Assembly (NCBI RefSeq): GCF_000196615.1
Contig: NC_014306.1
Coordinates: forward strand, 3,038,001-3,102,000
Length of the DNA: 64,000 bases
Direction: 5' to 3'
Origin: Erwinia billingiae Eb661
GTDB lineage: Bacteria > Pseudomonadota > Gammaproteobacteria > Enterobacterales > Enterobacteriaceae
Shown: piece after piece, positions 1 to 40,369 of the stretch
How positions within the stretch are numbered: position 1 is the stretch's first letter
How the letters are laid out: every line of letters begins with the position of its first letter
Notes under the pieces: model-generated
Database searches by the model: none
What the model was told of the DNA's origin: nothing
Seen by the model: the letters and a program-made list of their open reading frames with translations, nothing else
Program-made: the position numbers and the translations under genes

Positions 1-98
1 GCGATTTTCTCTTCCGCGCTGGCGGTAGACGACAGCGCCCCAAACATCAACGTGCTCAGCACGCAGTAAGACAGGGAAATGCGGGATGGTAACTTCAT
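1..98 (-). CDS. Secreted protein, N-terminal fragment cut by the window edge
   Basis: Only the first 32 codons lie inside the window. They start at an ATG (96-98) and encode a typical Sec signal peptide: Lys-2 and Arg-6, a hydrophobic core, and a likely cleavage site after the T-A-S-A motif near residue 28. The mature part begins EEKI and then leaves the window. The gene lies downstream of the LysR regulator on the same strand, with about 250 bp between them. A periplasmic binding protein or a porin would fit the neighbourhood, but nothing visible decides this. Confidence 0.6.
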   Translation of the reverse strand, partial: MKLPSRISLSYCVLSTLMFGALSSTASAEEKI

Positions 99-269
99 TG
101 CTCCTCTCCTTATTGTTGCCGGAGAGAGGACAAGCAGACGCGGCTCAGCCTCCCAATCCGGCGCAAAATGAACCGCGAAATGGTTGCTGAGCAATGTCCC
201 GCGCACTGAGCTGCACTGACCGCTTCTACTCACGTTTAGCTATACAAAAACGGTGCCAACTTCACCGAT

Positions 270-301
270 CGCCATTCCACAGGGTTTGTCGGGGAATGGC
301 G
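270..301. repeat. 9-bp inverted repeat between LysR gene and the partial secreted gene
   Basis: CGCCATTCC (270-278) and GGAATGGCG (293-301) are perfect inverse copies with a 14-nt loop. They lie in the 250-bp gap downstream of the LysR gene. No T-run follows on either strand, so an intrinsic terminator is doubtful; an operator or an mRNA hairpin is equally possible. A GTTGCAAC palindrome abuts the right arm at 301-308. Nothing else is recognisable in this gap. Confidence 0.4.
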
Positions 302-349
302 TTGCAACATTTGATTCAAAGGAGAGCATCACGCACTAAACTGGTGCGA

Positions 350-1270
350 TTATTCCTCGCGGCCTGGTGCATCAATCTGGCTGAACAACACTTCCAGCTG
401 TTTCAACATCATCGATGCCGCCAGTGAAAGCTGTCGTGAAGGCGCCAGGCACAGCGACAAGGTGAAGGATTTTAACTGCGGATCGGTCAGCGGAATAAAG
501 GCCAGCTCTTCGCGGTCCACCTCATCCATGATGTCCAGCCAGCAGAGGATGCCAATGCCGATCTTCTCTTTGATCAACGAACGGATCATATGGATGTTAT
601 TGGACACCGCCACTTCTTTCACCATGCCGCCGTTATTATTCAGCAGCGCCTCGACCGGCCCGTAAAGCATCAGCGGGGCTGAGGGAATAATAAATGGATA
701 TTCAAGGCATTGATTAAAGCGCACCCCGCTTCTGCCCTCCAGAGGATGCCCTTTGGGCACCACAATCCCCAGGTTGATCTCGGCAAAAGCCTGCACCATC
801 AGCTCCTTCGAGCTTTGTGGGTTGAGCATAATGCCAAAGTCCGCATCCCCTGAAATCAGCGCCTGCTGAATATCGATATTGTTCATGGTGGTCAGCGTGA
901 AGGAGATGTTGGGATAGTCCTGATGCACTTTCTTCAGCATCGACGAGAAGAAATGTCGGTTAATGGCATCGATGGTGGCAATCCGCACGTGCCCGCGCCG
1001 TAAGCCGCGCAGGTCGTCGAGCTGTTCACGCACCCGGGAAAAGTCCTTCTTCCAGTTTTTGGCGGCATGCAGCAACAGCTCCCCCGCCGCCGTCAGCCGC
1101 AGCCCGGTGGGATGCCGTTCAAACAGCGGCATCGCCAGCTCTTTTTCCACCCGCAGGATTTGCCGGTCGATAGAGGACGCCGCAACGTGCAGGGTTTCTG
1201 ACGCCTTACGGAAGGATCCCAGACGCGCCACTTCGGTGAAATACAGCAGGAACTTTGAGAAGGCGAACAT
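350..1270 (-). CDS. LysR-family transcriptional regulator
   Basis: About 306 residues if the start is the ATG at 1268-1270 (MFAFSKFLLY), where LysR proteins usually begin. An upstream in-frame ATG would add 14 residues unlike the family. The N-terminal winged helix-turn-helix (about residues 3-62: FTEVARLGSFRKASETLHVAASSIDR, read in pieces) is followed by a periplasmic-binding-like effector domain. It is transcribed away from the reductase/amidohydrolase cluster that starts at 1417, the classic arrangement for a LysR activator of a catabolic operon. The effector is unknown; the natural guess is the substrate of that cluster or an intermediate. The start is uncertain because no strong ribosome site precedes it. 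Confidence 0.88.
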   Translation of the reverse strand: MFAFSKFLLYFTEVARLGSFRKASETLHVAASSIDRQILRVEKELAMPLFERHPTGLRLTAAGELLLHAAKNWKKDFSRVREQLDDLRGLRRGHVRIATIDAINRHFFSSMLKKVHQDYPNISFTLTTMNNIDIQQALISGDADFGIMLNPQSSKELMVQAFAEINLGIVVPKGHPLEGRSGVRFNQCLEYPFIIPSAPLMLYGPVEALLNNNGGMVKEVAVSNNIHMIRSLIKEKIGIGILCWLDIMDEVDREELAFIPLTDPQLKSFTLSLCLAPSRQLSLAASMMLKQLEVLFSQIDAPGREE

Positions 1271-1416
1271 AGGTGAGGTGCTCTCTTTTATGCAACGGGA
1301 CGTGCGAATCAAAGCTCTCGACGCAACGCAGTTATAGCAATAACGTAGCTTTCATTGCAACGGGAACAATCGTTTCATCACTCAAACAGAGTCCAGACTC
1401 GCTACGGTAAAAGAAC
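1271..1416. promoter_or_regulatory. Divergent regulatory region with a repeated decamer
   Basis: This 146-bp gap separates the LysR gene from the catabolic cluster and must hold both promoters. TGCAACGGGA occurs twice in the same orientation, at 1291-1300 and 1356-1365, 65 bp apart (about six helical turns), which suits a LysR tetramer that bends DNA. That this is the LysR operator is inference; I did not find a clear -35/-10 pair. Confidence 0.45.
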
Positions 1417-2385
1417 ATGAAAGACGCCGAAATAATCCCTGTCACGATCAAAGCAATTACTGAAAATGGCGCAGGAAACCGGTCATTGCAGTTAATTGCC
1501 CAGCGGGATTATGCGTTGCCAGGCTGGTTACCCGGCGCACATATCGACCTGTTTATTCCGGAGATTGGCCCGCGCCAGTATTCTCTTTGTGGCGAACACG
1601 GTGACGCGGAATATTATGAAATCTGCGTCAAGCTGGCCGAACTGTCCTCTGGCGGCTCGCAGCATATTCACCACCATTTTAAGCCTGGCGACAGCCTGAC
1701 GATTTCCGCACCGCGCAATCATTTTCCGTTACTGGACGCGCCGCGTTACCTGCTGATGGCAGGCGGCATTGGCATTACGCCGTTGCTGGCGATGGCGGAA
1801 GCCATCGCGCGTCAGGGCGGCGAATGTGAGCTGCATTACTATGTTTCGAACCCCGAACAAACCGCCTTCCTGCCGCGTCTGAGCGCGCAACCTCTCGCGG
1901 AGCGGGTGTTTTTTCATTATAGCGACGCAAACGATTCCCTGCGCCACAACACGCCGCTCGCCCTGACGCAATCCGACCCGCATACCCGAGTGATGGCCTG
2001 CGGACCGGATGGCTTTATTCAGCGGCTGCAGGACATTATGCAGCAGCATCACTGGCAGCCCGACCAGTTACATTTTGAGCGTTTCAGCAACCCGGAATTA
2101 GCGCGACAAGGTGGCAATACGGCATTTCATATTGAGCTGAGTTCCACCGGACAACGTTATCTGGTCAGTCCGGAGCAGACCATTGCTGAAGTCTTACTCA
2201 GTGCCAAAGTCGATATTATGCTTTCCTGCGAACAGGGTATTTGTGGCTCCTGTATTACCGACGTGATCGACGGCATTCCGGATCACCGGGATTGTGTGCT
2301 GACCAATGAAGAAAAGGCCGACAACAGCCAGATAACGGTGTGCTGTTCCCGCGCCAAATCCCCTGTTCTGGTCCTCGACCTGTGA
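1417..2385 (+). CDS. Phthalate-dioxygenase-reductase-type oxidoreductase (flavin + 2Fe-2S)
   Basis: A 322-residue electron-transfer protein of the VanB/phthalate dioxygenase reductase family. The order is flavin-binding barrel (RQYSL at 53-57), NAD(P)H domain (GGIGITP at 116-122, CGPDGF at 195-200), and C-terminal plant-type ferredoxin with C271, C276, C279 and C309 as iron-sulfur ligands. Such proteins pass electrons from NADH to a Rieske oxygenase that hydroxylates or demethylates aromatic or N-heterocyclic rings. No oxygenase subunit is encoded in the window, so the partner is elsewhere or the protein serves another acceptor. It is the first gene of a one-direction cluster facing the LysR regulator. 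The next gene overlaps its stop codon. Confidence 0.9.
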   Translation: MKDAEIIPVTIKAITENGAGNRSLQLIAQRDYALPGWLPGAHIDLFIPEIGPRQYSLCGEHGDAEYYEICVKLAELSSGGSQHIHHHFKPGDSLTISAPRNHFPLLDAPRYLLMAGGIGITPLLAMAEAIARQGGECELHYYVSNPEQTAFLPRLSAQPLAERVFFHYSDANDSLRHNTPLALTQSDPHTRVMACGPDGFIQRLQDIMQQHHWQPDQLHFERFSNPELARQGGNTAFHIELSSTGQRYLVSPEQTIAEVLLSAKVDIMLSCEQGICGSCITDVIDGIPDHRDCVLTNEEKADNSQITVCCSRAKSPVLVLDL

Positions 2386-3671
2386 GGCTGACGACGCGCC
2401 CGACTCCACCCGGCTCGCTACTGGCCGGCGTTGCCAACGTCCGTTTACCGGCGTGGCTGCTGCCCGCCGACTGGCCGCAGCTGCAGGGTGAACCCGTCAC
2501 GGCGGATATCCGTTTTGCCGACGGCAGGATCGCCTCGCTAACCCCTGCACAGCCCGACCAGCCAGATTTGTGGGACCTTCAGGGCACGCTGGCCCTACCG
2601 GGCCTGATTGAACCGCACGCGCATCTGGATAAAACCTTCACCATTGGCCGCAGTCGCCCAGCCCGACCGGGTCTGTTAGCGGCGATTGAAACCCTGCACC
2701 AGGATCGCCAGCACTGGACCGCTGCGGATCTGCACCAGCGCGCGGCGCAGGGCCTGGCCTGGGCGGCGTCCCACGGCGTCAGCCTGTTACGCAGCCATAT
2801 CGACTGGTTTGAACCGACGCCACCGCTTGCCTGGCATGAACTGGCGACCCTTCACCAGCCTGGCGTCACGCTGCAACGCGTGGCGCTGGCCCCGCTCGGC
2901 TTTTTCGCCGATGCGGATGCCGCAGACCGTATTGCCCGCGCGGTGGCGCAAAGCGGTGAACACTGCCTGTTAGGCGGATTCGTTCACTCCTCCAACTGGG
3001 ATCCGGCCGCGATGGCCAACCTGATGCACAGCGCCGCCCGCTGGGGGCTGGATGTGGATTTGCATATCGACGAAGAGCTGAGCGAGACCGCCAACGGGCT
3101 GGTCTGGCTGACTGACTTCCTCAGCGAAAACGCCTTTAGCGGGCATATCTGCTGCAGCCACGGCTGCGCGCTGGCGTCCGGCAGTGAGCAGCAGGCTAAA
3201 GCCGTGCTCAGCGAATTAGCTAAACATCGCGTCACCCTGATCGCCCTCCCGATGACCAACCTGCTGTTGCAGGACGCTGTTGTCGGCCAGACGCCGCGCC
3301 AGCGCGGGATCACCCTGGTGAAAGAGGCGCAGGCCGCCGGCATTCCGGTGATGCTCGGGTGCGACAACGTGCAGGATGCCTTTTGCCCCGCGGGCAGCTA
3401 TGACCCGCTGGATACCCTGAGCTGCGGGCTGTTTGCCCTGCAGCTGGATAGAGTGTTTGACCAGCAGTCCCAGCTGATCTGTTCTGCTGCTGCGCTGACC
3501 GGTACGGCAAACGACTTACCGCTGGCGGTGGGTAGCCCCGCCAGCCTGGTGCTTTTCCCGGGAAGCGATAGCGTAACCTGGCCTTTAAACAGTGCGGCTC
3601 GCGTGGTGATCCACCACGGCAAGCTGACCTTTCAACGAACGTGGAATGCGGAGTGCTGTTATGAGTCTTGA
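2382..3671 (+). CDS. Amidohydrolase, cytosine-deaminase-like
   Basis: About 429 residues if translation starts at the GTG 2382-2384, which overlaps the previous stop (GTGA); a longer GTG start at 2340 is possible but adds unlikely sequence. The amidohydrolase signature EPHAHLDKTF lies near residue 77, with later metal and active-site elements in HIDEEL, CCSHGCAL and GCDNVQDAFCP, all typical of the CodA/ammelide hydrolase branch. These zinc or iron enzymes deaminate or open pyrimidine- and triazine-like rings. The real substrate is unknown. It sits between a ring-oxygenase-type reductase and a RidA/creatininase pair, which supports attack on a cyclic C-N compound. Its 3' end overlaps the next gene by 11 bp. 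Confidence 0.85.
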   Translation: MRLTTRPTPPGSLLAGVANVRLPAWLLPADWPQLQGEPVTADIRFADGRIASLTPAQPDQPDLWDLQGTLALPGLIEPHAHLDKTFTIGRSRPARPGLLAAIETLHQDRQHWTAADLHQRAAQGLAWAASHGVSLLRSHIDWFEPTPPLAWHELATLHQPGVTLQRVALAPLGFFADADAADRIARAVAQSGEHCLLGGFVHSSNWDPAAMANLMHSAARWGLDVDLHIDEELSETANGLVWLTDFLSENAFSGHICCSHGCALASGSEQQAKAVLSELAKHRVTLIALPMTNLLLQDAVVGQTPRQRGITLVKEAQAAGIPVMLGCDNVQDAFCPAGSYDPLDTLSCGLFALQLDRVFDQQSQLICSAAALTGTANDLPLAVGSPASLVLFPGSDSVTWPLNSAARVVIHHGKLTFQRTWNAECCYES

Positions 3672-4131
3672 AGCCGGAGCGGGCAAGCCGCTCGCCAAAT
3701 ATGCCGCCTGGCGTCGCGCGGGAGATTTTATCTTTCTGTCCGGCATTATTCCGGTCAATCCGCAGAGCGCCACCATCGTGCGCGGCTTTCAGGATATTCC
3801 GGCCGATGCCCGCCTGTTGCTCGGTGAAACCGGCGAATTCTCGACCGATGCCAAACAAGGCCCGATTCTTGCACAGAGTTGGTACGTGCTGGAAAGCATC
3901 CGCCGCACCATTGAAGAGGCCGGTGGCGAGATGAGTGACGTGATCAAGCTGGTGCAGTATTTCCGCAACCTCGATCACTTCCCGTATTACAGCCAGGTGC
4001 GAAAACTGTTTTATCCCGGTCAGCCGCCCGTTTCCACCGTGGTGCAGGTCAGCGAGATGCTGCCAGGTGCCGAGGTACTGATTGAAGTTGAGGCCACCGC
4101 GTGGCTACCCCAATCCCGCTTAACGCAATAA
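3661..4131 (+). CDS. RidA/YjgF-family protein
   Basis: 156 residues from the ATG at 3661, which overlaps the end of the amidohydrolase; a start 15 bp earlier is possible. The fold is recognised from FIFLSGIIPV near the start, VLESIRRTIEEAG in the middle and the C-terminal PPVSTVVQV...LIEVEATAW, where RidA proteins bind carboxylated imines. RidA enzymes hydrolyse enamine/imine intermediates or, in catabolic clusters, deaminate pathway intermediates such as aminoacrylate or aminomuconate. At 156 residues it is a little longer than housekeeping RidA (about 128), with an insert around residues 40-65. Its place between two amide/imine hydrolases suggests a dedicated catabolic deaminase rather than general imine repair. 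Confidence 0.85.
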   Translation: MSLEAGAGKPLAKYAAWRRAGDFIFLSGIIPVNPQSATIVRGFQDIPADARLLLGETGEFSTDAKQGPILAQSWYVLESIRRTIEEAGGEMSDVIKLVQYFRNLDHFPYYSQVRKLFYPGQPPVSTVVQVSEMLPGAEVLIEVEATAWLPQSRLTQ

Positions 4132-4152
4132 TGTCGGACAACGAGGCACAGT

Positions 4153-5034
4153 ATGATTAACGGTTATATTCCCGCAGCCCGCTTCCTCCCTTTCCTTAGC
4201 TGGCCGGCGATTGCTGCCCTGCCGGACAAAGCCAATACCGTGATCGTATTGCCGACTGGCGCCATAGAGCAACATGGCCCGCATCTGCCCTGCTCCGTGG
4301 ACAGCGTGATCTCGTCCGGCGTGGCAGGCCACGCGCTGGCCCGTTTGCCAAAAGCGATCCCGGCGTTCGCCATTCCGCCGATCACCTACGGCAAGTCGGA
4401 CGAGCATCTGAATTTCCCCGGCACCCTGACCTTAACCGGCGACACGCTGCTGCAAACCATTCTGGAAATTGCCGAATCGGTGTATCGCGCAGGCTTCCGC
4501 AAGCTGTTGATGATTAACGGCCACGGCGGACAGCCGCAGGTATTGCAGATGGCCTCACGCGAGATGCGTCTGCGCCATGGCGACATGATTATGATCCCGC
4601 ATGACGTGTTCCGCGTGCCGAACGTGGAGAACCAGTATCTCAGCGCGCAGGAGCAAAAAATGGCGATGCACGCGGGCCACAGTGAAACGGCGGTGATGCT
4701 GGCGCTGGCCCCGGAGTGCGTCCATATGGAGCATGCGGTGGTGAACTATCCTCCTGAATTCCCCTGCCCGACGCTGTCCAGCAGCCGTCCGGCGGCCGCC
4801 TGGGCCTCATACGACTTTGGTCCCAGCGGCGTGATTGGCGACCCGACGCAGGCCACCGTTGAGCAGGGCCACGCCATCCTCGACTCGCTCGCCGCCAGCT
4901 GGGCGCAGGCCATTACCGAAATCCATCAAATGGAATGGAAAGCACGCAGTGAACCCACCTGGGGAAAACACCACTGGAATGGCTTTGTGCAGACCTCTTT
5001 TACGCCACCTTCGTCTTCTTTTGCCTCTGAATAA
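4153..5034 (+). CDS. Creatininase-family amidohydrolase
   Basis: 293 residues. The metal-binding pattern of creatininases is complete: E39 and H41 in PTGAIEQHGPHLP, D50, H124 in NGHGG, and H176/E178 in GHSETA. Creatininase opens cyclic creatinine to creatine using two metal ions; relatives hydrolyse other cyclic amides or formamide-type intermediates. The gene lies 21 bp after RidA and 13 bp before the ABC binding-protein gene, so co-transcription is likely. Creatinine itself is one possible substrate of the cluster, but no creatinase or sarcosine oxidase gene is nearby, which argues against a plain creatinine pathway. Substrate undetermined. Confidence 0.85.
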   Translation: MINGYIPAARFLPFLSWPAIAALPDKANTVIVLPTGAIEQHGPHLPCSVDSVISSGVAGHALARLPKAIPAFAIPPITYGKSDEHLNFPGTLTLTGDTLLQTILEIAESVYRAGFRKLLMINGHGGQPQVLQMASREMRLRHGDMIMIPHDVFRVPNVENQYLSAQEQKMAMHAGHSETAVMLALAPECVHMEHAVVNYPPEFPCPTLSSSRPAAAWASYDFGPSGVIGDPTQATVEQGHAILDSLAASWAQAITEIHQMEWKARSEPTWGKHHWNGFVQTSFTPPSSSFASE

Positions 5035-5047
5035 AGGATTTCCCGTG

Positions 5048-6031
5048 ATGAATAACATGCGCAAAACCACCCATAGCCTGATTGCCCTGATGCTGGCCGG
5101 AACCTCTTTTTCCACCCTGGCAGAAGAAAAATTCACCTTCCTTACCAACTGGTACGCTCAGGCAGAACACGGCGGCTTTTATCAGGCGCAGGCCAAAGGG
5201 TTGTACAAAAATGCCGGGCTGGACGTCAGCATCAAGATGGGCGGCCCGCAGGTCAATGTGATGCAGCTGATGGCCGCCGGCCAGGCGGACTGTACGCTGG
5301 GCGACAACGGTCAGGCGCTGGAGACCTGGCAGGCCGGTGTGCATGCGATGACCGTCGCGACGGTGTTCCAGCACTCGCCAACGGTGTTTATCAGCCATGA
5401 CAAGGTCAGCAAAGGCGAGGAATTAAAAGATAAAACCTTCCTGCTGGCCACCGAGGCCTATACCTCGTTCTGGCCATGGGCTAAAAGCAATCTGGGCCTG
5501 GCCAACGCCAAAATTCGTCCTTACACCTTCAGCGTGCAGCCTTTCCTCGCGGACAATAATTTAGTCCAGCAGGGCTACGTCACCTCCGAGCCGTTCTCGG
5601 TGCAAAAAGGCGGCAAGCCATTCTACGTCTACCCGCTCAGCGACTGGGGCTACCCGCCGTACGGCAACTCGATTATCTGTATGGCCGACACGGTGAAAAA
5701 TCACCCGACGGCGGTCGCGGCCTTTATTAAGGCGTCGATGGAAGGCTGGAAAGAGTATCTGCAGGACCCGACCGCCGGCAACGTGCTGATCACCAAGGCC
5801 AACCCGCGAATGGGTGCCGATCAAATTGCCTTTGGCATCGCGCAGATGAAGAAATATGAGCTGGTGACCGGCGGCGACGCACAAACCGGCGGCATTGGCA
5901 TCATCACCGAACCGCGTCTGAAAGAGACCTGGGATATGTTGGTGAAAAACAAACTGATCGCCGCCGATAAAGTGCCGTTTGAACAGACCTATACCCTCGA
6001 CCTGATTAAAGACGCGAAGGTTATGCCATGA
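5048..6031 (+). CDS. ABC transporter substrate-binding protein, NMT1/THI5-like
   Basis: 327 residues from the ATG at 5048, preceded by AAAGGATT. The long upstream reading frame overlaps the previous gene and is not real coding. Residues 1-24 are a Sec signal peptide ending near S-T-L-A. The mature protein begins with the NMT1/THI5/SsuA pattern (FTFLTNWYAQAEHGGFYQA). Family members bind pyrimidines, sulfonates, nitrate or riboflavin-like ligands in the periplasm. The last codons overlap the ATPase gene (ATGA). It resembles, without matching, ThiY encoded 8 kb away, so a pyrimidine-like cargo is a reasonable guess for the whole cluster. Confidence 0.88.
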   Translation: MNNMRKTTHSLIALMLAGTSFSTLAEEKFTFLTNWYAQAEHGGFYQAQAKGLYKNAGLDVSIKMGGPQVNVMQLMAAGQADCTLGDNGQALETWQAGVHAMTVATVFQHSPTVFISHDKVSKGEELKDKTFLLATEAYTSFWPWAKSNLGLANAKIRPYTFSVQPFLADNNLVQQGYVTSEPFSVQKGGKPFYVYPLSDWGYPPYGNSIICMADTVKNHPTAVAAFIKASMEGWKEYLQDPTAGNVLITKANPRMGADQIAFGIAQMKKYELVTGGDAQTGGIGIITEPRLKETWDMLVKNKLIAADKVPFEQTYTLDLIKDAKVMP

Positions 6032-6855
6032 ATTCAGCCCCTAAACTGACCGTGATGAGTGAGGTGCGCGCGCCCAGCGCGCCGCCGCAGCCCGCCATTG
6101 AGGTGCTGTCGGCGGAGAAGATCTACAGCAACGGCACCCGCGCGTTATTGCCGGTCAATCTGACCATCAACCAGGGTGAATTTATCACCCTGCTTGGCCC
6201 CTCTGGCTGCGGCAAAAGTACGCTGCTGAAGATGGTGGCCGGGCTGATTGAACCGACCGACGGCAAGCTGATGTTGTGGCGGCGTGACAGCCGTGAAAAG
6301 GCGCAGGAGCCGCTGTCGTTTGTCTTCCAGGAAGCGACGCTGATGCCGTGGTGCAACGTGCATAACAACGTGCGCCTGCCGCTCGATCTGGCCGGCGTGC
6401 CGCGCGCAGAAGCCAACACCCGCGTCAGTGAAGCGCTGGAGCTGGTGGGGCTGGGCAAGTTTGCCAAAGTCCTGCCGCGAGAGCTGTCCGGCGGCATGCA
6501 GATGCGCGTGTCGATTGCGCGCGGGCTGGTCACACGGCCTAAGCTGCTGCTGATGGACGAACCGTTCGGCGCACTCGACGAAATCACCCGTAACAAGCTG
6601 GACAGCGATCTGCTGCGTCTGTGGCGCGAACAGGGCCTGACGGTGGTGTTCGTCACCCACTCCATTCACGAAGCGGTGTTTCTGTCGCAGCGGGTGATCA
6701 TGATGGCGGCACGGCCTGGCCGTGTGGTGGAGGATATCGCGATTACCGAACCCTTCCCGCGCAGTGAAGACTTCCGCGTCAGCCCGGCATTTTCGGTTTA
6801 TGCCAAACGCCTGCAGGACAGCCTTCTGCAAGCCAGCCAGTCAGGAAAGGAGTAA
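6028..6855 (+). CDS. ABC transporter ATP-binding protein (SsuB/TauB type)
   Basis: 275 residues with a complete nucleotide-binding domain: Walker A GPSGCGKST at about 57-65, Q-loop FVFQEATLMPW, signature LSGGMQMRVSIARG, Walker B LLLMDEPFGALDE and the switch histidine in VFVTHS. About 25 residues of variable sequence precede the domain. It powers import through the permease encoded 3 bp downstream, with the binding protein encoded just upstream. Spacing and order (binding protein, ATPase, permease) are those of sulfonate/nitrate/pyrimidine importers. Confidence 0.92.
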   Translation: MNSAPKLTVMSEVRAPSAPPQPAIEVLSAEKIYSNGTRALLPVNLTINQGEFITLLGPSGCGKSTLLKMVAGLIEPTDGKLMLWRRDSREKAQEPLSFVFQEATLMPWCNVHNNVRLPLDLAGVPRAEANTRVSEALELVGLGKFAKVLPRELSGGMQMRVSIARGLVTRPKLLLMDEPFGALDEITRNKLDSDLLRLWREQGLTVVFVTHSIHEAVFLSQRVIMMAARPGRVVEDIAITEPFPRSEDFRVSPAFSVYAKRLQDSLLQASQSGKE

Positions 6856-6858
6856 GCC

Positions 6859-7674
6859 ATGCAGACGCAACGATCAACGCCCTGGGCCAGCAACCCGACC
6901 TTCCGTAAAATCCTCTACCCGGCGGTGGTCGCCGTAGTGGTGATCCTGCTGTGGCAGGGCTGGGTCAGCTATTTCAAAATCCCGCAGTTCCTCGTGCCGT
7001 CGCCGGTGGTGATGCTGCAAAGCCTGTGGACCAACTTTGGTTCGCTGATGATGTCGCTGCTGTTCACGCTGAAAATCACCCTGATCTCCTTTGTGCTGTC
7101 GATCGTCATCGGCTGCGCGGTGGCCTTTGTGCTGGTGCAGAACCGCTTTGTTGAAACGGCGCTGTTCCCGTACATCGTGTTTCTGCAGGTGACGCCGATT
7201 GTGGCGATCGCGCCGCTGATCATCATCTGGGTGAAAGACACCACGCTGTCGTTAGTGGTCTGCTCGACGCTGATGGCGGTGTTCCCGATCATTTCCAACA
7301 CCACCCAGGGGTTACGCAGCGTGTCGCCGGGCCTGCTGAGCTATTTCCAGCTGAGCCATGCCAGCCGCCTGCAAATCCTGGTGCGCCTGCGCATTCCCTC
7401 TGCCCTGCCGTACTTTTTCGGCGCGCTGCGCATCTCCAGCGGACTGTCGCTGATCGGCGCGGTAGTGGCCGAGTTTGTGGCGGGCACCGGTGGCAACAAC
7501 ACCGGGCTGGCCTATCAGATTTTACAGGCAGGTTATCAGCTGGATATTCCGCTGATGTTTGCCGCGCTGCTGTTGATTTCGTTAACCGGGATCGCGCTGT
7601 TTGGCGTGATGTCGTGGATTTCCCGGCGCGCCCTCAGCGCCTGGCATGAAAGCGAAGCCGTGCAATCTCACTAA
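6859..7674 (+). CDS. ABC transporter permease (SsuC/TauC type)
   Basis: 271 residues with about six hydrophobic segments; the first spans roughly residues 18-34 (YPAVVAVVVILLW). The cytoplasmic coupling loop with the EAA-like pattern lies around RLQILVRLRIPSALPYFFGALR, followed by the usual glycine-rich stretch. It is the membrane channel of the importer made with the two preceding genes; one gene suffices because the permease acts as a homodimer. The start codon is 3 bp after the ATPase stop, with GGAG in front. Confidence 0.9.
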   Translation: MQTQRSTPWASNPTFRKILYPAVVAVVVILLWQGWVSYFKIPQFLVPSPVVMLQSLWTNFGSLMMSLLFTLKITLISFVLSIVIGCAVAFVLVQNRFVETALFPYIVFLQVTPIVAIAPLIIIWVKDTTLSLVVCSTLMAVFPIISNTTQGLRSVSPGLLSYFQLSHASRLQILVRLRIPSALPYFFGALRISSGLSLIGAVVAEFVAGTGGNNTGLAYQILQAGYQLDIPLMFAALLLISLTGIALFGVMSWISRRALSAWHESEAVQSH

Positions 7675-7698
7675 TTTAATGACCCTTTTGCCGACAGG

Positions 7699-9105
7699 AT
7701 GAGTATGGACAGTGAACAACGTAAGAACGCCGTAGAGCAGATGCTGCTGGCGCTTCCCGACCTCGAGTGGACGCTTCAGGCCCCCAAGGTCAAACGTCTT
7801 TCGCGCGATTTTCACTGGTTCAGCCCGGTGCTGAAGCAGCAGCTGGAAAACAAGCAGGCCGATGCGGTGGTTCGCCCGCGCAATGAAGAAGAGCTCAGCC
7901 TGCTGGTCAAGGCCTGCGTGCAGCACGGCCTGCCGCTGATATTACGCGGTGGCGCAACCGGCAACTACGGTCAGCTGGTGCCGCTACAGGGCGGCATTCT
8001 GGTCGATATGACCGCGTTTAATCAGGTGGTGGAACTAGGTGAAGGCCGCGTGCGGGCGCAGGCGGGGATCCGTCTGGCCGAGATTGAAACGGTGACCCGT
8101 CCTGAGGGCTGGGAGCTGCGCTGTATGCCGTCGACCTATCGGCTGGCGACGCTGGGTGGACTGTATGGCGGCGGCTTTGGCGGCATCGGCTCAATCAACT
8201 ATGGCCCGCTGGGCGCACCCGGCAACGTGCTGAGCGTGAAAGTGATGACCATGGAAGCCGAGCCGCGCATCCTCAGCGTTCCCGCGCCGCAGGCCTTGCT
8301 GCTGCATCATGCTTACGGCAGCAACGGCATCGTGCTGGAAGTCGAGCTGGCGCTGGCGCCGGTGCATCAGTGGATTGAGCGGCTGGATGTGTTCGACGAC
8401 TTTACCGATGCGCTGGACTATGCCAATGCCTTTGCCCGCTCGCCAGGGCTGGTGAAACGCCAGCTTGCCCTGTTCGCCGCACCAATCCCGAGCTATTTCA
8501 CCCATCTGAACGGCAACTACCGGGCCACGCAACATGCGGTGATCAGCGTGATTGCGGAGCAAAGTGAAGGCCTGTGCAGCGGACTGTTAGAAAAGTATCG
8601 CGGCCAGAATGCCGTGCGCCAGACGGCGAACGAGGCGCGTGAAGCCAACGCCTCGCTGATGGAATATTGCTGGAACCACACCACGCTGCATGCGCTGAAA
8701 GTGGACAGCACCCTGACCTATTTGCAGACGGCGTTCAATTATTCCACCTATCGCCAACAAATTATTGCGATGGCGGAATTGTTCGGCGATGAAGTTATTT
8801 CCCATATTGAATTCCTGCGTGACAACGATAGCAATATCACTGCCAGCGGATTACAATTAATTCGCTATTCCAGTGAAGAAAGATTGAACGAAATAATGCA
8901 GATATTCCGCGATAATGATGTAAAAATAAACAATCCGCATGTCTTTACCATTGAAGAAGGTAAGCAAGGGGAAATTAAGGCCGAGGTGGTTTCAGTTAAA
9001 AAGGCGCTGGACCCGGCAGGACTGCTCAACCCAGGCAAGCTGCAGGGTTGGGACGTGCGCGACACGCTGGAATTACCAAGCGATCCGCTGTCACTGAATA
9101 AATGA
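7699..9105 (+). CDS. FAD-binding oxidase/dehydrogenase (PCMH-type FAD domain)
   Basis: 468 residues; the second ATG at 7705 is an equal or better start because AGGA lies directly before the first. The FAD-binding PCMH domain covers roughly residues 45-220, with the phosphate loop RGGATGNYGQLVPLQGG and the second FAD contact near GGFGGIGSINYGP. The C-terminus (LDPAGLLNPGKLQGW) is the usual end of the GlcD/vanillyl-alcohol-oxidase family. Members oxidise hydroxy acids, alcohols or amines to keto products. Its position after the importer suggests a step in the same pathway. The last third of the gene is visibly richer in A+T than its start. Confidence 0.85.
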   Translation: MSMDSEQRKNAVEQMLLALPDLEWTLQAPKVKRLSRDFHWFSPVLKQQLENKQADAVVRPRNEEELSLLVKACVQHGLPLILRGGATGNYGQLVPLQGGILVDMTAFNQVVELGEGRVRAQAGIRLAEIETVTRPEGWELRCMPSTYRLATLGGLYGGGFGGIGSINYGPLGAPGNVLSVKVMTMEAEPRILSVPAPQALLLHHAYGSNGIVLEVELALAPVHQWIERLDVFDDFTDALDYANAFARSPGLVKRQLALFAAPIPSYFTHLNGNYRATQHAVISVIAEQSEGLCSGLLEKYRGQNAVRQTANEAREANASLMEYCWNHTTLHALKVDSTLTYLQTAFNYSTYRQQIIAMAELFGDEVISHIEFLRDNDSNITASGLQLIRYSSEERLNEIMQIFRDNDVKINNPHVFTIEEGKQGEIKAEVVSVKKALDPAGLLNPGKLQGWDVRDTLELPSDPLSLNK

Positions 9106-9258
9106 AATCAGCATAAAATTAATTACAGTGAGTAAATAAAGCACGTATCTAAAATAACGCGCTCGCCACTGGACGGTTTTACCGGATACCCAAAAACAAT
9201 TACTCAGCAAATTTTGCTGCGGGCAGATCATTTTCAAATTTTTGACAGGAAGCTATTG

Positions 9259-10533
9259 ATGAAAACAAAGAAGGTCAACTTTGCGCTAAAGTTGGGTGCA
9301 CTCGTCGTCTCTCAGGCTTTATTAATGGGTCACGCGCTGGCCGCGGCACCGGTTTCGGATTGTGATGCCGGCGTGGCCGATTCACTGACCGAAATGTTTA
9401 CCTGCGGCTCGGTCCATGGCAGCCTGCGCAGCCTCTATTATTCCACCCACAACGCCTATTTCTCACCGGGCTATTCGCAGGACACCGTCAGCTACGGTGG
9501 CAGCGTGAAGTACGCCACGGCGGAATATTATGGCCTGAGCCTCGGCGTCAGCGGCATTTTGCAACGCGGCATCTCGCATAACGATGACCACTTGATCGGT
9601 GAACTGGGGCCAAACGAGACCGGCGTCGGCGAAGCCTATCTGAGCTGGCACTATCAGGACTTCCGTATCACCGCCGGTGACCAGCGTATCAATATCCCGT
9701 TTATCGGCGACTACGACTGGCGCATCACCCCGATCCTGTTCCGGGGTGTGGACGCCAATTATGGCGACAGCGACAACTTCCTGCACGCCACCAAAATTAC
9801 CCGCTATAAACCCTGGGGTGACGATCAGTTCCTCGACACCACCGCCTACACCGACGCCGATGGCCGCACCAACGGCATGTGGGGCATCGGCGGCGGACGT
9901 GCCCTGAAGCTGGATGATAAAAAGCTGACCGGCCAGCTGTGGTACGAGGAATACAATAACTACACCAAGATGGTTTACGCCGACAGCTTCCTGTCGTGGT
10001 CGGAAAATCCGTTGCAGCCCAAAATTGGCGTGCAGTTTATTCGCGGCCTGAGTCAGGGCGATGCGCTGGCCGGCGAAGTAAACAGCACCAGCTACGGCGC
10101 GCAGTATGCGATGAATTTTGTACCTTCATTGCGCTGGTCACTGAACTGGGACCATATCGCCGCCAGTGAGAATGCCTATGGCAACGGCGCGCTGGTGACG
10201 CCTTATGCCCATAACACCTCGTCCGGCCAGTATTTTGCCCAACCGTTCTTCACCAGTACCCAGGATTTGGGGAGCGGCAACGCCTACTCCACCGATCTGA
10301 ACTGGACCGCCAACAGCAATATTTCCCTCGGCAGCCGCTACTCGTTTATGGATTTGACCGCCAGCGCCGGCGCGTCCAGCAGCAATCAGTCGGAGTACCT
10401 GATTTACGGCACCTACAGCTTTGATGGCGTGCTGAAAGGGCTGAGCCTGACCGACTTTGTCGGCGTGCAAACCACCTCGACCTCTGACAAGAACTTCTGG
10501 CAGAACCGCTTAGCGTTAGAATATGATTTCTAA
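9259..10533 (+). CDS. OprD-like outer-membrane porin
   Basis: 424 residues from the ATG at 9259, preceded by AGGAAG; the longer frame upstream lacks a signal. Residues 1-28 are a signal peptide (Lys-rich start, then GALVVSQALLMGHALA). The mature protein has the alternating polar/aromatic strands of a beta barrel and ends in a C-terminal Phe (RLALEYDF), the signal for outer-membrane insertion. GSLRSLYY and the overall pattern match OprD channels, which admit small anions, amino acids or aromatic acids in pseudomonads and are uncommon in enteric bacteria. It closes the catabolic cluster and would give its substrate a way across the outer membrane. A terminator follows. Confidence 0.82.
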   Translation: MKTKKVNFALKLGALVVSQALLMGHALAAAPVSDCDAGVADSLTEMFTCGSVHGSLRSLYYSTHNAYFSPGYSQDTVSYGGSVKYATAEYYGLSLGVSGILQRGISHNDDHLIGELGPNETGVGEAYLSWHYQDFRITAGDQRINIPFIGDYDWRITPILFRGVDANYGDSDNFLHATKITRYKPWGDDQFLDTTAYTDADGRTNGMWGIGGGRALKLDDKKLTGQLWYEEYNNYTKMVYADSFLSWSENPLQPKIGVQFIRGLSQGDALAGEVNSTSYGAQYAMNFVPSLRWSLNWDHIAASENAYGNGALVTPYAHNTSSGQYFAQPFFTSTQDLGSGNAYSTDLNWTANSNISLGSRYSFMDLTASAGASSSNQSEYLIYGTYSFDGVLKGLSLTDFVGVQTTSTSDKNFWQNRLALEYDF

Positions 10534-10561
10534 GCCAAAACAGGCTTAGTGGCGCTTAAAC

Positions 10562-10588
10562 AACGGCTTTCGCAAGAAGGCCGTTTTT
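10562..10588 (+). terminator. Intrinsic terminator after the porin gene
   Basis: AACGGC (10562-10567) and GCCGTT (10580-10585) pair as a stem, extended by TT/AA with a bulge, and are followed by a run of five T. It lies 29 bp after the porin stop and separates the catabolic cluster from the thiamine locus. Confidence 0.75.
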
Positions 10589-10653
10589 CATTATGACGCC
10601 AACTCGGCTGCCAGCCATCGATTGTAATCAAAAAGTAAATATCGTATAACAAG

Positions 10654-10745
10654 CCTCTCCGAGGGGTGTCCTTTATGGGCTGAGATGGCGACGTTAGCCG
10701 GACCCTTTGAACCTGATCTGGGTCATGCCAGCGAAGGGACGGGTT
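10654..10745 (+). promoter_or_regulatory. TPP riboswitch (THI element)
   Basis: The conserved blocks appear in order: GGGGTG near 10663, GGGCTGAGAT (10677-10686), ACCCTTTGAACCTGATC (10702-10718), and GTCATGCCAGCGAAGGGA (10722-10739). These are the pyrimidine-sensor and pyrophosphate-sensor arms of the thiamin-pyrophosphate aptamer. It lies about 75 bp before tenA, whose ribosome site GGAGG is at 10814-10818. No strong terminator lies between, so control of translation is more likely than premature termination; that part is inference. TPP should switch off tenA-thiZXY. Confidence 0.95.
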
Positions 10746-10821
10746 GGCAATAGCACCACTTTCGATCGTTGCCTGTTCATACCTCTGCACGCCCGGATCT
10801 CCACTCACTTTTGGAGGTCCC

Positions 10822-11517
10822 ATGTCTGACAACATGTTTTCCCGTGGTCTTTATGGCCAGCTTCGCCAGCAGGCCGCGGCTGACTGGCAGCACTACGTTA
10901 ACCACCCTTTTCTTCAGCAGTTGGCCCAGGGCACGCTGCCTGAAAGCGCGTTTCGGCTTTATCTGACCCAGGACTACCTGTTCCTGATCCATTTCGCCCG
11001 CGCCTATGCCCTGCTGGTCAGCAAGTTCCGAACCTTGCCAGAAATGCGTGCCGCCACCGCCTCGCTGAACGCCATCGTCGCCGAGCTGCCGCTGCATGTC
11101 GGTTACTGCACGCAGTGGGGCATCAGCGAAAGCCAGATGCGCAATGAACAGGAAGCGCCCGAAACCCTCAACTACACCCGCTATGTGCTGGATATCGGCC
11201 AGTCCGGCGATGCGCTGGATCTGCTGGCCGCGCTGCTTCCCTGCGTGGCGGGCTATGCCGAAATAGGCCTCGGCTTGCTGCACAATCCCGCCACCGTCAC
11301 CGAAGGCAATCCCTACCGCTCGTGGATCGCCAACTACGGCGATGAAAACTATCTGGCCAGCGTACAGCGGGCGATTGACCTGCTGGAAACGGTCGGGGTT
11401 CAGCGCGGCGCACAGAGCCGTCTGCCGGAGCTTTCAACCATCTTCACCACCGCCACCCGTCTGGAAAGCGCCTTCTGGCAGATGGGCCTGAATGCCAGTT
11501 TGAGTAACGTGGTATGA
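10822..11517 (+). CDS. tenA: TenA aminopyrimidine aminohydrolase
   Basis: 231 residues from the ATG at 10822, right after a strong GGAGG site. TenA enzymes hydrolyse the amino group of degraded thiamine pyrimidine (aminomethyl-HMP to HMP), feeding HMP back to thiamine synthesis. The catalytic pattern of the cysteine class is present: D51 (LTQDYLF), C141 in LLPCVAGYAEIG, and a glutamate near the C-terminus in RLESAFW. The upstream TPP riboswitch and the downstream overlapping thiZXY transporter genes confirm the salvage role. It could also hydrolyse thiamine weakly, as some members do. Confidence 0.94.
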   Translation: MSDNMFSRGLYGQLRQQAAADWQHYVNHPFLQQLAQGTLPESAFRLYLTQDYLFLIHFARAYALLVSKFRTLPEMRAATASLNAIVAELPLHVGYCTQWGISESQMRNEQEAPETLNYTRYVLDIGQSGDALDLLAALLPCVAGYAEIGLGLLHNPATVTEGNPYRSWIANYGDENYLASVQRAIDLLETVGVQRGAQSRLPELSTIFTTATRLESAFWQMGLNASLSNVV

Positions 11518-12263
11518 ACAGTCATGACATTGCCCGCGGCGTGATCCCGCCGGGGATTCAGGTTCGCGATCTGACCCTGCGCTACGGCGCACGGACGGTG
11601 TTTGAGCAGTTGAACATTGATATCCGCGGTGGGCAGTTTGCTGCGATGCTCGGTGCCAGCGGCGTCGGCAAAACCAGTCTGCTGAAGATCATTGCCGGGC
11701 TGGCGCAGCCGACGGCAGGCACGGTCACCGGCAGCGACGGTCTGCCGGTTCCGGGACGCGTGGCTTATATGGGGCAGAAAGATCTGCTCTATCCATGGCT
11801 AACCGTCCGCGAGAATATCAGCCTCGCCTCACGCCTGCGTGGCGAGAAGCCCGACCGCGAATGGGCTGACGAACTGACGGATCGCGTCGGCTTAAGCGGC
11901 TATGGCGACAGCCTGCCTGCCGCGCTGTCCGGCGGCATGCGGCAGCGTGCCGCGCTGGCCCGCACGCTTTATCAGCGTCAGCCGATGGTGCTGATGGATG
12001 AGCCCTTTTCAGCGCTGGATGCCATTACCCGCACCAGTATCCAGACGCTGGCCTCAATGTTACTGACCGGCCACACGGTGTTACTGATCACCCACGATCC
12101 GCTGGAAGCCTGCCGCCTTAGCCACCAGCTGTTGGTGCTGTCTGCCGCCGGGATTGATGATTCCCATCAGATTGCCGGACTGCCGCCCCGGGCCCCTGAC
12201 GATCGGCACCTGTTGCAGAGCCAGGGTGAATTACTGCAACAGCTGACCCGGGCGGCAGGATGA
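11514..12263 (+). CDS. thiZ: Thiamine-precursor ABC transporter ATPase (ThiZ)
   Basis: 249 residues with Walker A GASGVGKTS, signature LSGGMRQRAALARTL, Walker B VLMDEPFSALD and switch-histidine LLITHD. It overlaps tenA by 4 bp (ATGA) and the permease gene by 4 bp, so the genes are translationally coupled. In comparative genomics ThiXYZ is the importer for HMP or formylaminopyrimidine found under TPP riboswitches beside tenA; that is the basis for the specificity. The last 50 residues are less conserved than the core. Confidence 0.9.
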   Translation: MNSHDIARGVIPPGIQVRDLTLRYGARTVFEQLNIDIRGGQFAAMLGASGVGKTSLLKIIAGLAQPTAGTVTGSDGLPVPGRVAYMGQKDLLYPWLTVRENISLASRLRGEKPDREWADELTDRVGLSGYGDSLPAALSGGMRQRAALARTLYQRQPMVLMDEPFSALDAITRTSIQTLASMLLTGHTVLLITHDPLEACRLSHQLLVLSAAGIDDSHQIAGLPPRAPDDRHLLQSQGELLQQLTRAAG

Positions 12264-13027
12264 TATCCGCAAAAGAATCGGCCTTTGGCCGCTGGCGGCG
12301 TGGCCTGACGGTATTTATCGGCCTGATTGCCGTCTGGTGGGCAATCACCCGCAGCGGCGTTCCTGCCTTCCTGCTGCCCACGCCGATGTCGGTTGCCGAC
12401 GTCCTGTGGACCAGTCGCGCGTATCTGGCGGCGCACACGCTGGTGACCGCGGCAGAAATCGTCAGCGGGCTGGTCGCCGGCGTGTTGCTCGGCGCCATCC
12501 TTGCACTGTGCATGATGTTCTCTCCCCGCTTACAGCGCTGGCTGATGCCGCTGGTGTTGACCAGCCAGGCCATACCGGTCTTTGCGCTGGCACCCTTGCT
12601 GGTGCTGTGGTTCGGCTTCGGCATCAGCGCCAAGGTGGCGATGGCGGTGCTGGTGATTTTCTTCCCGGTCACCTCGGCTTTCTTCGACGGGTTGCGCCGG
12701 GTCAATAACGATTTTCTCGACCTCGCCCGCACCATGGGCGCGTCCCGCTGGGCGTTATTACGCCATGTGCGGCTGATGGCGGCGCTGCCCGCGTTTGGCT
12801 CCGGGCTGAGGATGGCGGCTGCAGTGGCGCCGATTGGTGCCATTATCGGCGAATGGGTCGGCGCAGGAGAAGGTCTGGGCTACGTGATGCTGAACGCCAA
12901 TGCGCGGATGCAAACCGAACTCTGCTTTGCGGCACTTTTTATTCTGGTGCTGATGACCCTGCTGCTGTGGCTGGCAGTGGACAGTGCACTGCGTCGCCTG
13001 ATCCGCTGGGCACCGGAAAATGACTGA
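12260..13027 (+). CDS. thiX: Thiamine-precursor ABC transporter permease (ThiX)
   Basis: 255 residues, about six membrane segments, beginning with a hydrophobic helix around residues 15-32. The coupling loop appears at TMGASRWALLRHVRLMAALPAFGSGLR (read in pieces), followed by the glycine-rich stretch IGAIIGEWVGAGEGLG typical of SsuC/TauC/ThiX permeases. It overlaps the ThiZ gene by 4 bp, and the binding-protein gene begins 25 bp downstream. It forms the inner-membrane channel for the pyrimidine precursor. Confidence 0.9.
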   Translation: MISAKESAFGRWRRGLTVFIGLIAVWWAITRSGVPAFLLPTPMSVADVLWTSRAYLAAHTLVTAAEIVSGLVAGVLLGAILALCMMFSPRLQRWLMPLVLTSQAIPVFALAPLLVLWFGFGISAKVAMAVLVIFFPVTSAFFDGLRRVNNDFLDLARTMGASRWALLRHVRLMAALPAFGSGLRMAAAVAPIGAIIGEWVGAGEGLGYVMLNANARMQTELCFAALFILVLMTLLLWLAVDSALRRLIRWAPEND

Positions 13028-13052
13028 TCGATACCTCACTCAAGGGAAACAC

Positions 13053-13988
13053 ATGTTTAAGAAAACTCTCTGCGGCCTGCTGCTGACTGCCGCCTGTGCC
13101 CACGCCGCCTGTGCCAACGACAAGCTGACGCTGGTGCTGGACTGGTATATCAACCCCGATCACGCGCCGATCATGGTCGCGGAACAGATTGGCGCGTTTA
13201 AGGAACAGGGGCTGGAGGTGAAGATTGTGCCGCCTTCCGATCCGGCATTGCCGCCACGGCTGGTGGCAGCCAAACAGGCCGACCTGGCGATCACCTATCA
13301 GCCACAGCTGCATTTCTTTGCCGATCAGGGCTTACCGCTGATGCGCGTCGGCACGCTGATCAACTCGCCGTTAAATACGGTGATTACGCTGGATAAAAGC
13401 ATCACCTCGCCGGCCGGGCTGAAAGGCAAAAAAATTGGCTACTCGGTCAGCGGGATTGAACAGGCGACGCTGGGCACCATGCTGAACCATGAAAAGGTCA
13501 GTCTGGATCAGGTGAAGATGGTCAACGTCAATTTCCAGCTCAACAGCGCGCTGATGGCGGGCCAGGTCGATGCGGTGATAGGCGGCTATCGCAATATCGA
13601 AGCGCTGGAGCTGAAGCAGCACGGTCAGTATCCGCAGGTATTCAACGTTGAGGACTACGGCGTTCCGGCCTATGACGAGCTGATTATCGTGGCGAATCGC
13701 GATGAGGTGAACGCGCCGAAAATCAAAAAATTCCTGATTGCGCTGAAGAAAGGCAGCGACTACCTGCATGCCCATCCGCAGGAGAGTTGGGATGCGTTCG
13801 CCAGTGCGCACCCGGACCTTAATAATGCCTTAAACAAAGCCGCGTGGATGAAAACCCTGCCGATGTTTGCCCGCGATCCGGCCCATCTGGACAGAGCCCG
13901 TTATGACGCTTACGAACGGTTCCTTTTTGACCATAAGCTGATCAAAAAAATAACGACGGTTAACAATTACGCGATGGAATTACGTTAA
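13053..13988 (+). CDS. thiY: Thiamine-precursor ABC transporter binding protein (ThiY)
   Basis: 311 residues from the ATG at 13053 with AAGGGA 8 bp before it; an in-frame ATG at 13020 lies in the previous gene's tail and would break the signal peptide. Residues 1-22 form a signal peptide ending near ACA. The mature protein begins KLTLVLDWYINPDHAPIMVA, the NMT1/THI5 pattern of pyrimidine-binding proteins. It captures the HMP-type precursor in the periplasm for ThiX/ThiZ. It is the last gene under the TPP riboswitch, and a hairpin follows the stop. Confidence 0.92.
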   Translation: MFKKTLCGLLLTAACAHAACANDKLTLVLDWYINPDHAPIMVAEQIGAFKEQGLEVKIVPPSDPALPPRLVAAKQADLAITYQPQLHFFADQGLPLMRVGTLINSPLNTVITLDKSITSPAGLKGKKIGYSVSGIEQATLGTMLNHEKVSLDQVKMVNVNFQLNSALMAGQVDAVIGGYRNIEALELKQHGQYPQVFNVEDYGVPAYDELIIVANRDEVNAPKIKKFLIALKKGSDYLHAHPQESWDAFASAHPDLNNALNKAAWMKTLPMFARDPAHLDRARYDAYERFLFDHKLIKKITTVNNYAMELR

Positions 13989-17365: not shown

Positions 17366-17382
17366 TTATCCAGGAGAAGCCA

Positions 17383-18204
17383 ATGAAGGCATGGACTACC
17401 CTTTTGACGCAGCCAGGCTATCTGGTTGGCGTGCAGGCCTTGCAGAAATCGTTAGTGAAGTCAGGCAGCGCCTTTCCACTGGTGGTGATGGTCACGGAAA
17501 ATATCGATGCCGATGCGCGTAAGGCGCTGGAAGCAGCCGGTTGTTTGCTGCGCGATGTGCAGCCGATCAGCCCGAACAGCAGCCTGCAAAACAACTACGC
17601 TAACGCGCGTTTTTCCGAGGTATGGACCAAGCTGGCGGTCTGGAAGCTGACCGAATTTGAACGCATTGTGTTCCTTGATGCGGACATGTTAGTGACGCAA
17701 AACATGGATGAGCTGTTTGAGCTGCCATTGGAAGAGGATCAGATTGCGGCCTGTCACGCCTGTCGTTGCAATCCAAACAAGATCCCAAGCTATCCGAAAA
17801 GCTGGCGTCCCGAGAACTGTTTCTACAGTTTTTGCCGTGGCATAGAGCACACGGAAGAGTTGGAAGAAGTGGATAATTACCTGAACGGCGGTTTCCTGGT
17901 GTTGCGCCCGGATCAGGCGATATTTGAAGATATGTTGCATCAGTTGGCGGAGTTGGACGATCTTTCCCGCTATCTGTTTGCCGAGCAGGACTTCCTCAAT
18001 GACTATTTCCACGAGCGTTGGAAGCCCTTGCCGTACATTTACAACGCGTTGAAAACGCTACCGTTCCAGCACTCCGCGATGTGGGATCTGGATGAGGTGA
18101 AGAACATTCACTTTATCATTGATAAGCCATGGGAGAAGGCGCTGGACAAGGGCGACCGCTATTACGCATTGAATAAGATGTGGTGGGATATCGCGGAAGC
18201 CTGA
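17383..18204 (+). CDS. GT8-family glycosyltransferase (glycogenin/galactinol-synthase-like)
   Basis: 273 residues after AGGAGA. It starts with KAWTTLLTQPGYLVGVQALQKSL (in pieces), the entry strand of GT8 enzymes, and has the metal/nucleotide-sugar motif DADM at about 105-108 (FLDADMLV), then NGGFLVLRP, and a C-terminal histidine in KNIHFIIDKPW. This pattern is closest to eukaryotic-type glycogenin and galactinol synthase rather than to bacterial LPS GT8 enzymes. It transfers a hexose from a UDP-sugar; the acceptor is not shown by sequence. Coupling to the lactone oxidase points to a small molecule such as an ascorbate analogue rather than a polysaccharide. Confidence 0.85.
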   Translation: MKAWTTLLTQPGYLVGVQALQKSLVKSGSAFPLVVMVTENIDADARKALEAAGCLLRDVQPISPNSSLQNNYANARFSEVWTKLAVWKLTEFERIVFLDADMLVTQNMDELFELPLEEDQIAACHACRCNPNKIPSYPKSWRPENCFYSFCRGIEHTEELEEVDNYLNGGFLVLRPDQAIFEDMLHQLAELDDLSRYLFAEQDFLNDYFHERWKPLPYIYNALKTLPFQHSAMWDLDEVKNIHFIIDKPWEKALDKGDRYYALNKMWWDIAEA

Positions 18205-35996: not shown

Positions 35997-36056
35997 ACGG
36001 AACTCTCTTCTGGCAACGCCCTGCTCACAGCACAGGGCGTTGCCCGCAGTGACAGC

Positions 36057-36983: not shown

Positions 36984-37009
36984 TGCTGAGTCCGTATCCC
37001 AAAAAGGTC

Positions 37010-37843: not shown

Positions 37844-37885
37844 AATATTTCCCGTAGTGAGTCAGGCGTTACGCCTTGTGCGCCC

Positions 37886-37920
37886 TATTAAGGGTGAGCG
37901 GGGTGACGTTTTAATGACAA
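37886..37920 (-). promoter_or_regulatory. Pho box promoter in front of phnC
   Basis: On the minus strand, positions 37920-37903 read TTGTCATTAAAACGTCAC, matching the E. coli Pho box CTGTCATAAAACTGTCAC at 14 of 18 positions. It consists of two 7-mers with an A+T spacer. Eleven bases downstream lies TTAATA (37891-37886), a plausible -10, the spacing usual in PhoB-activated promoters. The box is about 60 bp from the phnC ATG. PhoB control is inferred from this match. Confidence 0.72.
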
Positions 37921-37981
37921 CAGGATGATGAAAGCGTGACGCCGGAAGGTGAAAGAGAAAACCCCAGCGCCATCAGGCCGT

Positions 37982-40355: not shown

Positions 40356-40369
40356 GTTTTATTCCAGAG

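Follow-up and report, generated by a model that had tools for sequence, protein, structure and literature searches.

Here we describe a gene cluster at the start of a 64,000-nucleotide window of the Erwinia billingiae Eb661 genome (5.37 Mb), taken from a 5.1-Mb contig (NC_014306.1, positions 3,038,001-3,102,000). Nine plus-strand genes, the right arm, lie 3' of a divergent LysR gene, and a xanthine riboswitch heads a divergent operon, the left arm, which encodes a binding protein, an amidohydrolase and a 2-oxoglutarate (2OG)-Fe(II) oxygenase. Coordinates are those of the window; beyond its edge they are given on L004, where window position 1 is L004:18001.

Two divergent arms around a LysR gene

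The features are as follows, from left to right.

L004:14662-15642, minus strand: left-arm 2OG-Fe(II) oxygenase, 326 amino acids (2OG-FeII_Oxy), beyond the window edge
L004:15670-17097, minus strand: left-arm amidohydrolase, 475 amino acids (Amidohydro_1), beyond the window edge
1-98 (L004:17109-18098), minus strand: start of the left-arm NMT1-type binding protein (NMT1, 74.8 bits; ATG read by eye), which exits the window
99-183, minus strand: leader from aptamer to start codon, with a pyrimidine tract predicted to be able to pair with the Shine-Dalgarno sequence
184-236, minus strand: xanthine riboswitch aptamer RF03054 (57.8 bits against a gathering score of 36, Rfam scan of the window)
350-1270, minus strand: LysR-type regulator (profile match; start taken to be the ATG, although a TTG further upstream, at 1312, is also open)
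1271-1416, no strand: LysR/reductase intergenic region, containing a strongly conserved block when the window is aligned with 20 loci
1417-2385, plus strand: PDR/VanB-type flavin and 2Fe-2S reductase (profile match)
2382-3671, plus strand: cytosine-deaminase-like amidohydrolase (Amidohydro_3), whose GTG start overlaps the reductase stop
3646-4131, plus strand: RidA-family protein (profile match)
4153-5034, plus strand: creatininase-family protein (PF02633)
5048-6031, plus strand: right-arm NMT1-type binding protein (profile match; ATG at 5048 read by eye)
6028-6855, plus strand: ATP-binding cassette (ABC) ATPase (profile match)
6859-7674, plus strand: ABC permease (profile match)
7699-9105, plus strand: flavin adenine dinucleotide (FAD)-dependent oxidase/oxygenase of the FAD_binding_4 family (profile match)
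9259-10533, plus strand: outer-membrane porin-like protein (open reading frame, ORF)

The nine-gene run had been proposed in a first-pass annotation, and it stands: all nine ORFs are intact with one terminal stop each, point in one direction and are tightly packed (junction overlaps of 4, 26 and 4 bp; gaps of 21, 13, 3, 24 and 153 bp), and the families named were matched for the reductase, the amidohydrolase, RidA, the creatininase-family protein, the NMT1-type importer and the FAD oxidase. Its OprD-like porin survives as a porin-like ORF, which had no Pfam match and reached only 22.6 bits, against a cut-off of 100, as 'Opr family porin'. A terminator-like hairpin was read by eye at about 10562-10590. 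The borders 1417-10533 were drawn too narrowly, since the cluster also includes the riboswitch and the divergent operon. No match to window 1-11500 was found in the E. coli collection.

The aptamer (236-184) is the sole xanthine riboswitch found in the genome and retains the core columns of an 18-sequence aptamer alignment. The leader that follows is possibly the expression platform: its Shine-Dalgarno sequence is mostly paired in the prediction (unpaired 0.24), and a similar pyrimidine tract occurs in other riboswitch leaders. The fold of the whole leader, however, reaches a z-score of only -1.70, with 15 of 200 shuffles equally stable. On the other side of LysR, the intergenic region 1271-1416 with its conserved block likely holds the operator and promoters; TGCAACGGGA is present twice within the block (1291-1380), and the copies are possible LysR sites. 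Neither a permease nor an ATPase gene was seen among the left-arm genes, and both binding proteins therefore probably use the permease and ATPase of the right arm.

Conservation of the arms and distribution of the riboswitch

Related loci were collected by scanning genomes with an alignment of 13 amidohydrolase sequences. Of the 548 related stretches, the 80 best were taken and combined with five plasmid loci (n = 85; amidohydrolase present by construction). Because gene picking is unreliable in GC-rich loci, counts are restricted to profile matches. The binding protein was matched in 85/85 loci, the creatininase-family protein and the ATPase in 84/85 each, the permease in 82/85 and the FAD oxidase in 80/85; five loci have gaps (L026, L066, L077, L082 and L084), three of them cut by a contig end. 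The first-pass annotation had made its cluster depend on the genes being conserved together, and their order recurs across the 85 loci with few local rearrangements: amidohydrolase, (RidA), creatininase-family protein, binding protein, ATPase, permease and FAD oxidase. RidA exceeds 100 bits in 43/43 loci of Enterobacterales and 25/42 of Burkholderiales, and a porin-like homologue occurs in 23/43 and 0/42, respectively. In the plasmid collection, the right arm is present in Rahnella, Klebsiella and Pantoea, and both arms are present in the Rahnella and Klebsiella records. One Klebsiella pneumoniae record (L006) is 5.37 Mb long, is filed as a plasmid and has several cluster genes split between frames; one Burkholderiales contig carries the right-arm genes in two tandem copies (L063:1931-16425).

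Upstream of the amidohydrolase, 33 of the 42 Burkholderiales loci encode a flavodoxin-like protein, joined in 15 of them by a short ferredoxin-like frame; two have a full reductase and seven have neither reductase nor flavodoxin-like protein. This pattern suggests that the reductase of the window, whose closest single-protein structure is phthalate dioxygenase reductase (2pia, 176.5 bits), may have a role other than serving a Rieske protein, such as feeding the flavin enzyme or acting on the substrate.

The riboswitch model was built from 18 aptamers, some of them from loci later searched (L010, L049 twice, L074). With it, the riboswitch was found in 35/35 loci that have a left-arm gene and was missing from 48/50 that lack one; in the two exceptions (L064, L080) it lies near a contig end. 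It is rare in whole-genome samples, occurring in 12/394 genomes of Enterobacterales and 17/398 phylum-wide, 25 genomes together. In 24 of these 25, the flanks (about 1.5 kb on each side) hold a 2OG oxygenase in 17 genomes, a PRK12393-type amidohydrolase without oxygenase in 3, a VanA-type Rieske oxygenase in 2 and only a left-type binding protein in 2; the remaining genome, G007, has a weak match of 29.9 bits, under the gathering score. All four Burkholderiales genomes examined that have the right arm also have the riboswitch (L049 and L074 were already known), which is distant from the right arm in Variovorax paradoxus (L089) and Hydrogenophaga intermedia S1 (L075). In the latter, an opposed pair of aptamers is flanked on one side by a VanA-type Rieske gene and on the other by an NMT1-type gene; excerpts of PMC7373994 give this strain as that of the published reporter assay. 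In several loci (L074:16735-21203, L064:293-1443, L113, L131, L217) a VanA-type Rieske oxygenase takes the place of the 2OG enzyme behind the xanthine riboswitch, so that one riboswitch class precedes two unrelated classes of oxygenase. Close to another xanthine riboswitch (L115:1-1557) lies a cytidine-deaminase-fold protein (TadA-like, below cut-off), possibly representing a third type of ring deaminase.

The amidohydrolase of the left arm belongs to a family that follows the riboswitch closely. In a survey of 388 Enterobacterales genomes with at most four candidates scored per genome, PRK12393 was above cut-off in 10, and in each of these a riboswitch lies on the same contig at a distance of 13 to 5,287 bp (one match, in G044, has an internal stop). 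Fisher's test gives p = 3.5e-18 for all matches and 3.4e-14 for matches over both cut-offs; it ignores relatedness and takes the 388 genomes as a subset of the 394 scanned for the riboswitch. Among the matches listed, weaker relatives (349 to 406 bits) stand alone in 54 genomes, of which only G263 has a riboswitch; the five tested score 650-729 bits as 8-oxoguanine deaminase, and the five riboswitch-linked deaminases tested score higher on PRK12393. By these profile scores the riboswitch tracks the PRK12393 branch and not the 8-oxoguanine branch. Close relatives of the FAD enzyme (>300 bits) occur in 6/388 genomes; four of these have the riboswitch (G000, G306, G238, G348), and G094 and G164 are not among the riboswitch matches.

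Enzyme families and a proposed pteridine pathway

Gene content, synteny, the riboswitch, the family matches and the association between riboswitch and deaminase family are established directly. The left amidohydrolase exceeds the PRK12393 cut-off (809.8 vs 543 bits), misses that of 8-oxoguanine deaminase PRK08203 (382 vs 532 bits) and is 62.5% identical over 469 residues to 2PAJ, which we take to be Sgx9339a, an isoxanthopterin deaminase; Sgx9339a was reportedly presented as such in 2010. Of two papers citing that report, one describes action on isoxanthopterin and pterin-6-carboxylate. By sequence, the left amidohydrolase is in this isoxanthopterin deaminase branch, with the difference that its gene stands within a riboswitch operon. 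The right amidohydrolase misses the cytosine deaminase cut-off (PRK07583, 250 vs 403 bits) and is probably a pterin or lumazine-forming deaminase; excerpts of PMC9513972 assign the pterin deaminase of Variovorax F1 / Arad3529 to the same cytosine-deaminase-like group and place an 'endoribonuclease' (RidA) gene directly after its gene. An initial grouping of 2PAJ with Arad3529 was dropped, as the enzyme of PMC9513972, so far as the excerpts go, belongs to the right-arm group.

The FAD enzyme is related in sequence and fold to its nearest structure, 6V42, the title of which refers to a flavin oxygenase in folate catabolism; neither 6v42 nor 6v43 is named in the open-licence literature searched. 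The creatininase-family protein, a candidate for the ring-contraction enzyme, matches PF02633 with 239.6 bits (cut-off 31.3) and stays under the equivalog cut-offs of creatininase (107 vs 235), MftE (141 vs 172) and IolN (72 vs 245). Its metal-site residues E39, H41, D50, H124 and E178 are present in 24/24 sequences, and a different residue occupies the position that presumably matches creatininase Glu122.

The first-pass annotation had read the cluster as serving to import, oxidise and deaminate an N-heterocycle, a reading that the conserved gene set supports, and had left the substrate open. Evidence for pteridines comes from the divergent arm, the xanthine riboswitch and the closest solved structures, and we consider it probable, with moderate confidence, that the two arms form a pterin/lumazine catabolism cluster under xanthine feedback. 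Every substrate, the order of steps and the EC 5.5.1.3 candidate are inferred. Oxidised pterins, whose ring system is that of folate, would be imported through the porin and a single ABC permease/ATPase pair, to which each arm contributes a binding protein. The amidohydrolases would strip the 2-amino group, converting pterin to lumazine (right arm) and isoxanthopterin to violapterin (left arm), and oxidation of the pyrazine half would be the task of the 2OG-Fe(II) oxygenase, the FAD enzyme and the reductase. Opening of the pyrazinedione amide would fall to the creatininase-family protein, possibly helped by RidA, and the product would re-close as an imidazole; this ring contraction would turn tetrahydroxypteridine into xanthine-8-carboxylate (the orphan EC 5.5.1.3) and yield xanthine for xanthine dehydrogenase (XDH) and HpxO, whose genes lie about 0.46 Mb from the cluster. 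LysR would presumably sense an inducer, and the xanthine-bound riboswitch would halt translation of the left arm.

Several points weigh against this proposal. The two arms are separable, since the right arm occurs without left arm or riboswitch in 21/43 Enterobacterales loci (mainly Pantoea, within the stretch examined) and the riboswitch lies outside the right-arm locus or on its other side in 3/4 Burkholderiales genomes. Support for the window proteins comes from sequence. The Variovorax gene that is followed by RidA, probably that of the published pterin deaminase, is 36-38% identical to the right amidohydrolase and is not the 50% relative (in the four Variovorax genomes compared, the RidA-followed copy is another gene in three). 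The Variovorax enzyme therefore supports the family only; simple orthology was dropped, the right amidohydrolase being probably a paralogue, and the published work, in the excerpts of PMC9513972, ends at deamination. The genome has no VanA_C domain and hence no VanA-type Rieske partner for the reductase. No decarboxylase was recognised, and isoxanthopterin was among the purchased compounds of the riboswitch study, according to excerpts of PMC7373994.

The discoverers of the riboswitch proposed purine oxidation or salvage, in which a purine is imported, the left amidohydrolase acts on guanine or 8-oxoguanine, the oxygenase makes xanthine or urate, and the right arm takes a further purine product. 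Such a route would suit the published ligands and OFF action of the aptamer class, which binds xanthine and uric acid, as well as the annotation of its genes as guanine or 8-hydroxyguanine deaminase-like proteins and dioxygenases (PMC7373994, in excerpt), and the left amidohydrolase does reach 382 bits on 8-oxoguanine deaminase. That score is nevertheless below the cut-off, whereas PRK12393 far exceeds its own; true 8-oxoguanine deaminases are common in Enterobacterales and nearly never accompany the riboswitch; 6V42 concerns folate; and XdhB and HpxO are already encoded in the genome. We regard purine oxidation as rather unlikely. The Klebsiella hpx system named in PMC7373994 handles xanthine and urate, and its counterparts HpxO and XdhB in the Eb661 genome lie in a separate locus without riboswitch, neither arm having an HpxO or XDH gene. 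Less credible still is that the cluster degrades some other imported N-heterocycle, be it a pyrimidine, a pyridine or a xenobiotic, and that the riboswitch serves only to guard against side accumulation of xanthine: the right amidohydrolase resembles cytosine deaminase (4r7w, 112.7 bits) and the 2OG oxygenase is closest to thymine dioxygenase (120.3 bits), but both matches are distant and the cytosine deaminase cut-off is missed. Salvage or breakdown of the thiamin pyrimidine (hydroxymethylpyrimidine) seems very improbable despite the NMT1 annotation and the thiamin pyrophosphate (TPP) riboswitch (10652-10756) and TenA-like gene directly 3' of the cluster, as no thiamin gene is listed by the cluster in the incomplete tables of four plasmid records of Rahnella, Klebsiella and Pantoea, and excerpts of PMC7373994 report no modulation of the aptamer by thiamin-pathway compounds up to 1 mM; the thiamin link was dropped and the TPP operon treated as a mere neighbour. 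The lack of a gene-for-gene match to the Rut, creatinine and hydantoin pathways, as first annotated, was borne out, and all three were dropped (RutC 46.9 vs 169.1 bits; creatininase 107 vs 235; D-hydantoinase, dihydropyrimidinase model, 18.3 vs 393).

The EC 5.5.1.3 reaction is that of tetrahydroxypteridine cycloisomerase, which gives xanthine-8-carboxylate, and McNutt's pathway is a pteridine breakdown route known from biochemistry only. If the pteridine proposal is true, the cluster would supply genes for this old pathway, including an EC number listed without sequence in passages of a 2007 survey of orphan enzymes, and it may explain the purpose of a poorly understood riboswitch. As in the published regulon of the xanthine riboswitch (NMT1 motif), the aptamer, over the Rfam cut-off, heads an NMT1 binding protein, a PRK12393 amidohydrolase and a 2OG dioxygenase; it differs from the regulon in excerpts of PMC7373994 in being tied to a conserved right arm and in being interpreted as pteridine breakdown, not purine oxidation. 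The same excerpts state that the dioxygenase functions are not established and that no genes for degradation of oxidised purines lie alongside. A pteridine-to-xanthine route would answer both points, as the switch would sit on the enzymes that make xanthine. More speculatively, and with clear doubt, the whole riboswitch class could serve pteridine breakdown, and not purine oxidation, as a switch that responds to the end product. The accompanying clusters would then encode the missing EC 5.5.1.3, for which the creatininase-family protein is the likeliest candidate, and the pyrazine ring would be oxidised by either a 2OG-Fe(II) or a VanA-type Rieske oxygenase. Apart from PMC7373994, no paper joining pteridine breakdown with the xanthine riboswitch was listed in the open-licence literature searched.

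Neighbouring and other loci

The genome has two Rieske-domain frames, one without adjacent reductase and the other, by eye, a ferredoxin-reductase-like fusion. The former, a Rieske oxygenase-like protein in a run of ABC-transporter and monooxygenase genes (L111:6209-7375), may conceivably be the partner of the cluster reductase. Window 10652-13988 (TPP riboswitch, TenA-like gene, ABC ATPase, permease and binding protein; gene names by eye) is a separate operon for salvage of thiamin precursors. Just past the left arm, on the opposite strand, MesX (PF08908) adjoins a MetE-C-terminal-like protein (PF01717; L004:12489-14524). Farther along the window, an alditol/gulonolactone-type FAD oxidase adjoins a glycosyltransferase-like gene (15986-18204, by eye), and a long minus-strand run resembles genes for phosphonate uptake and carbon-phosphorus lyase (34249-44849, translations by eye).

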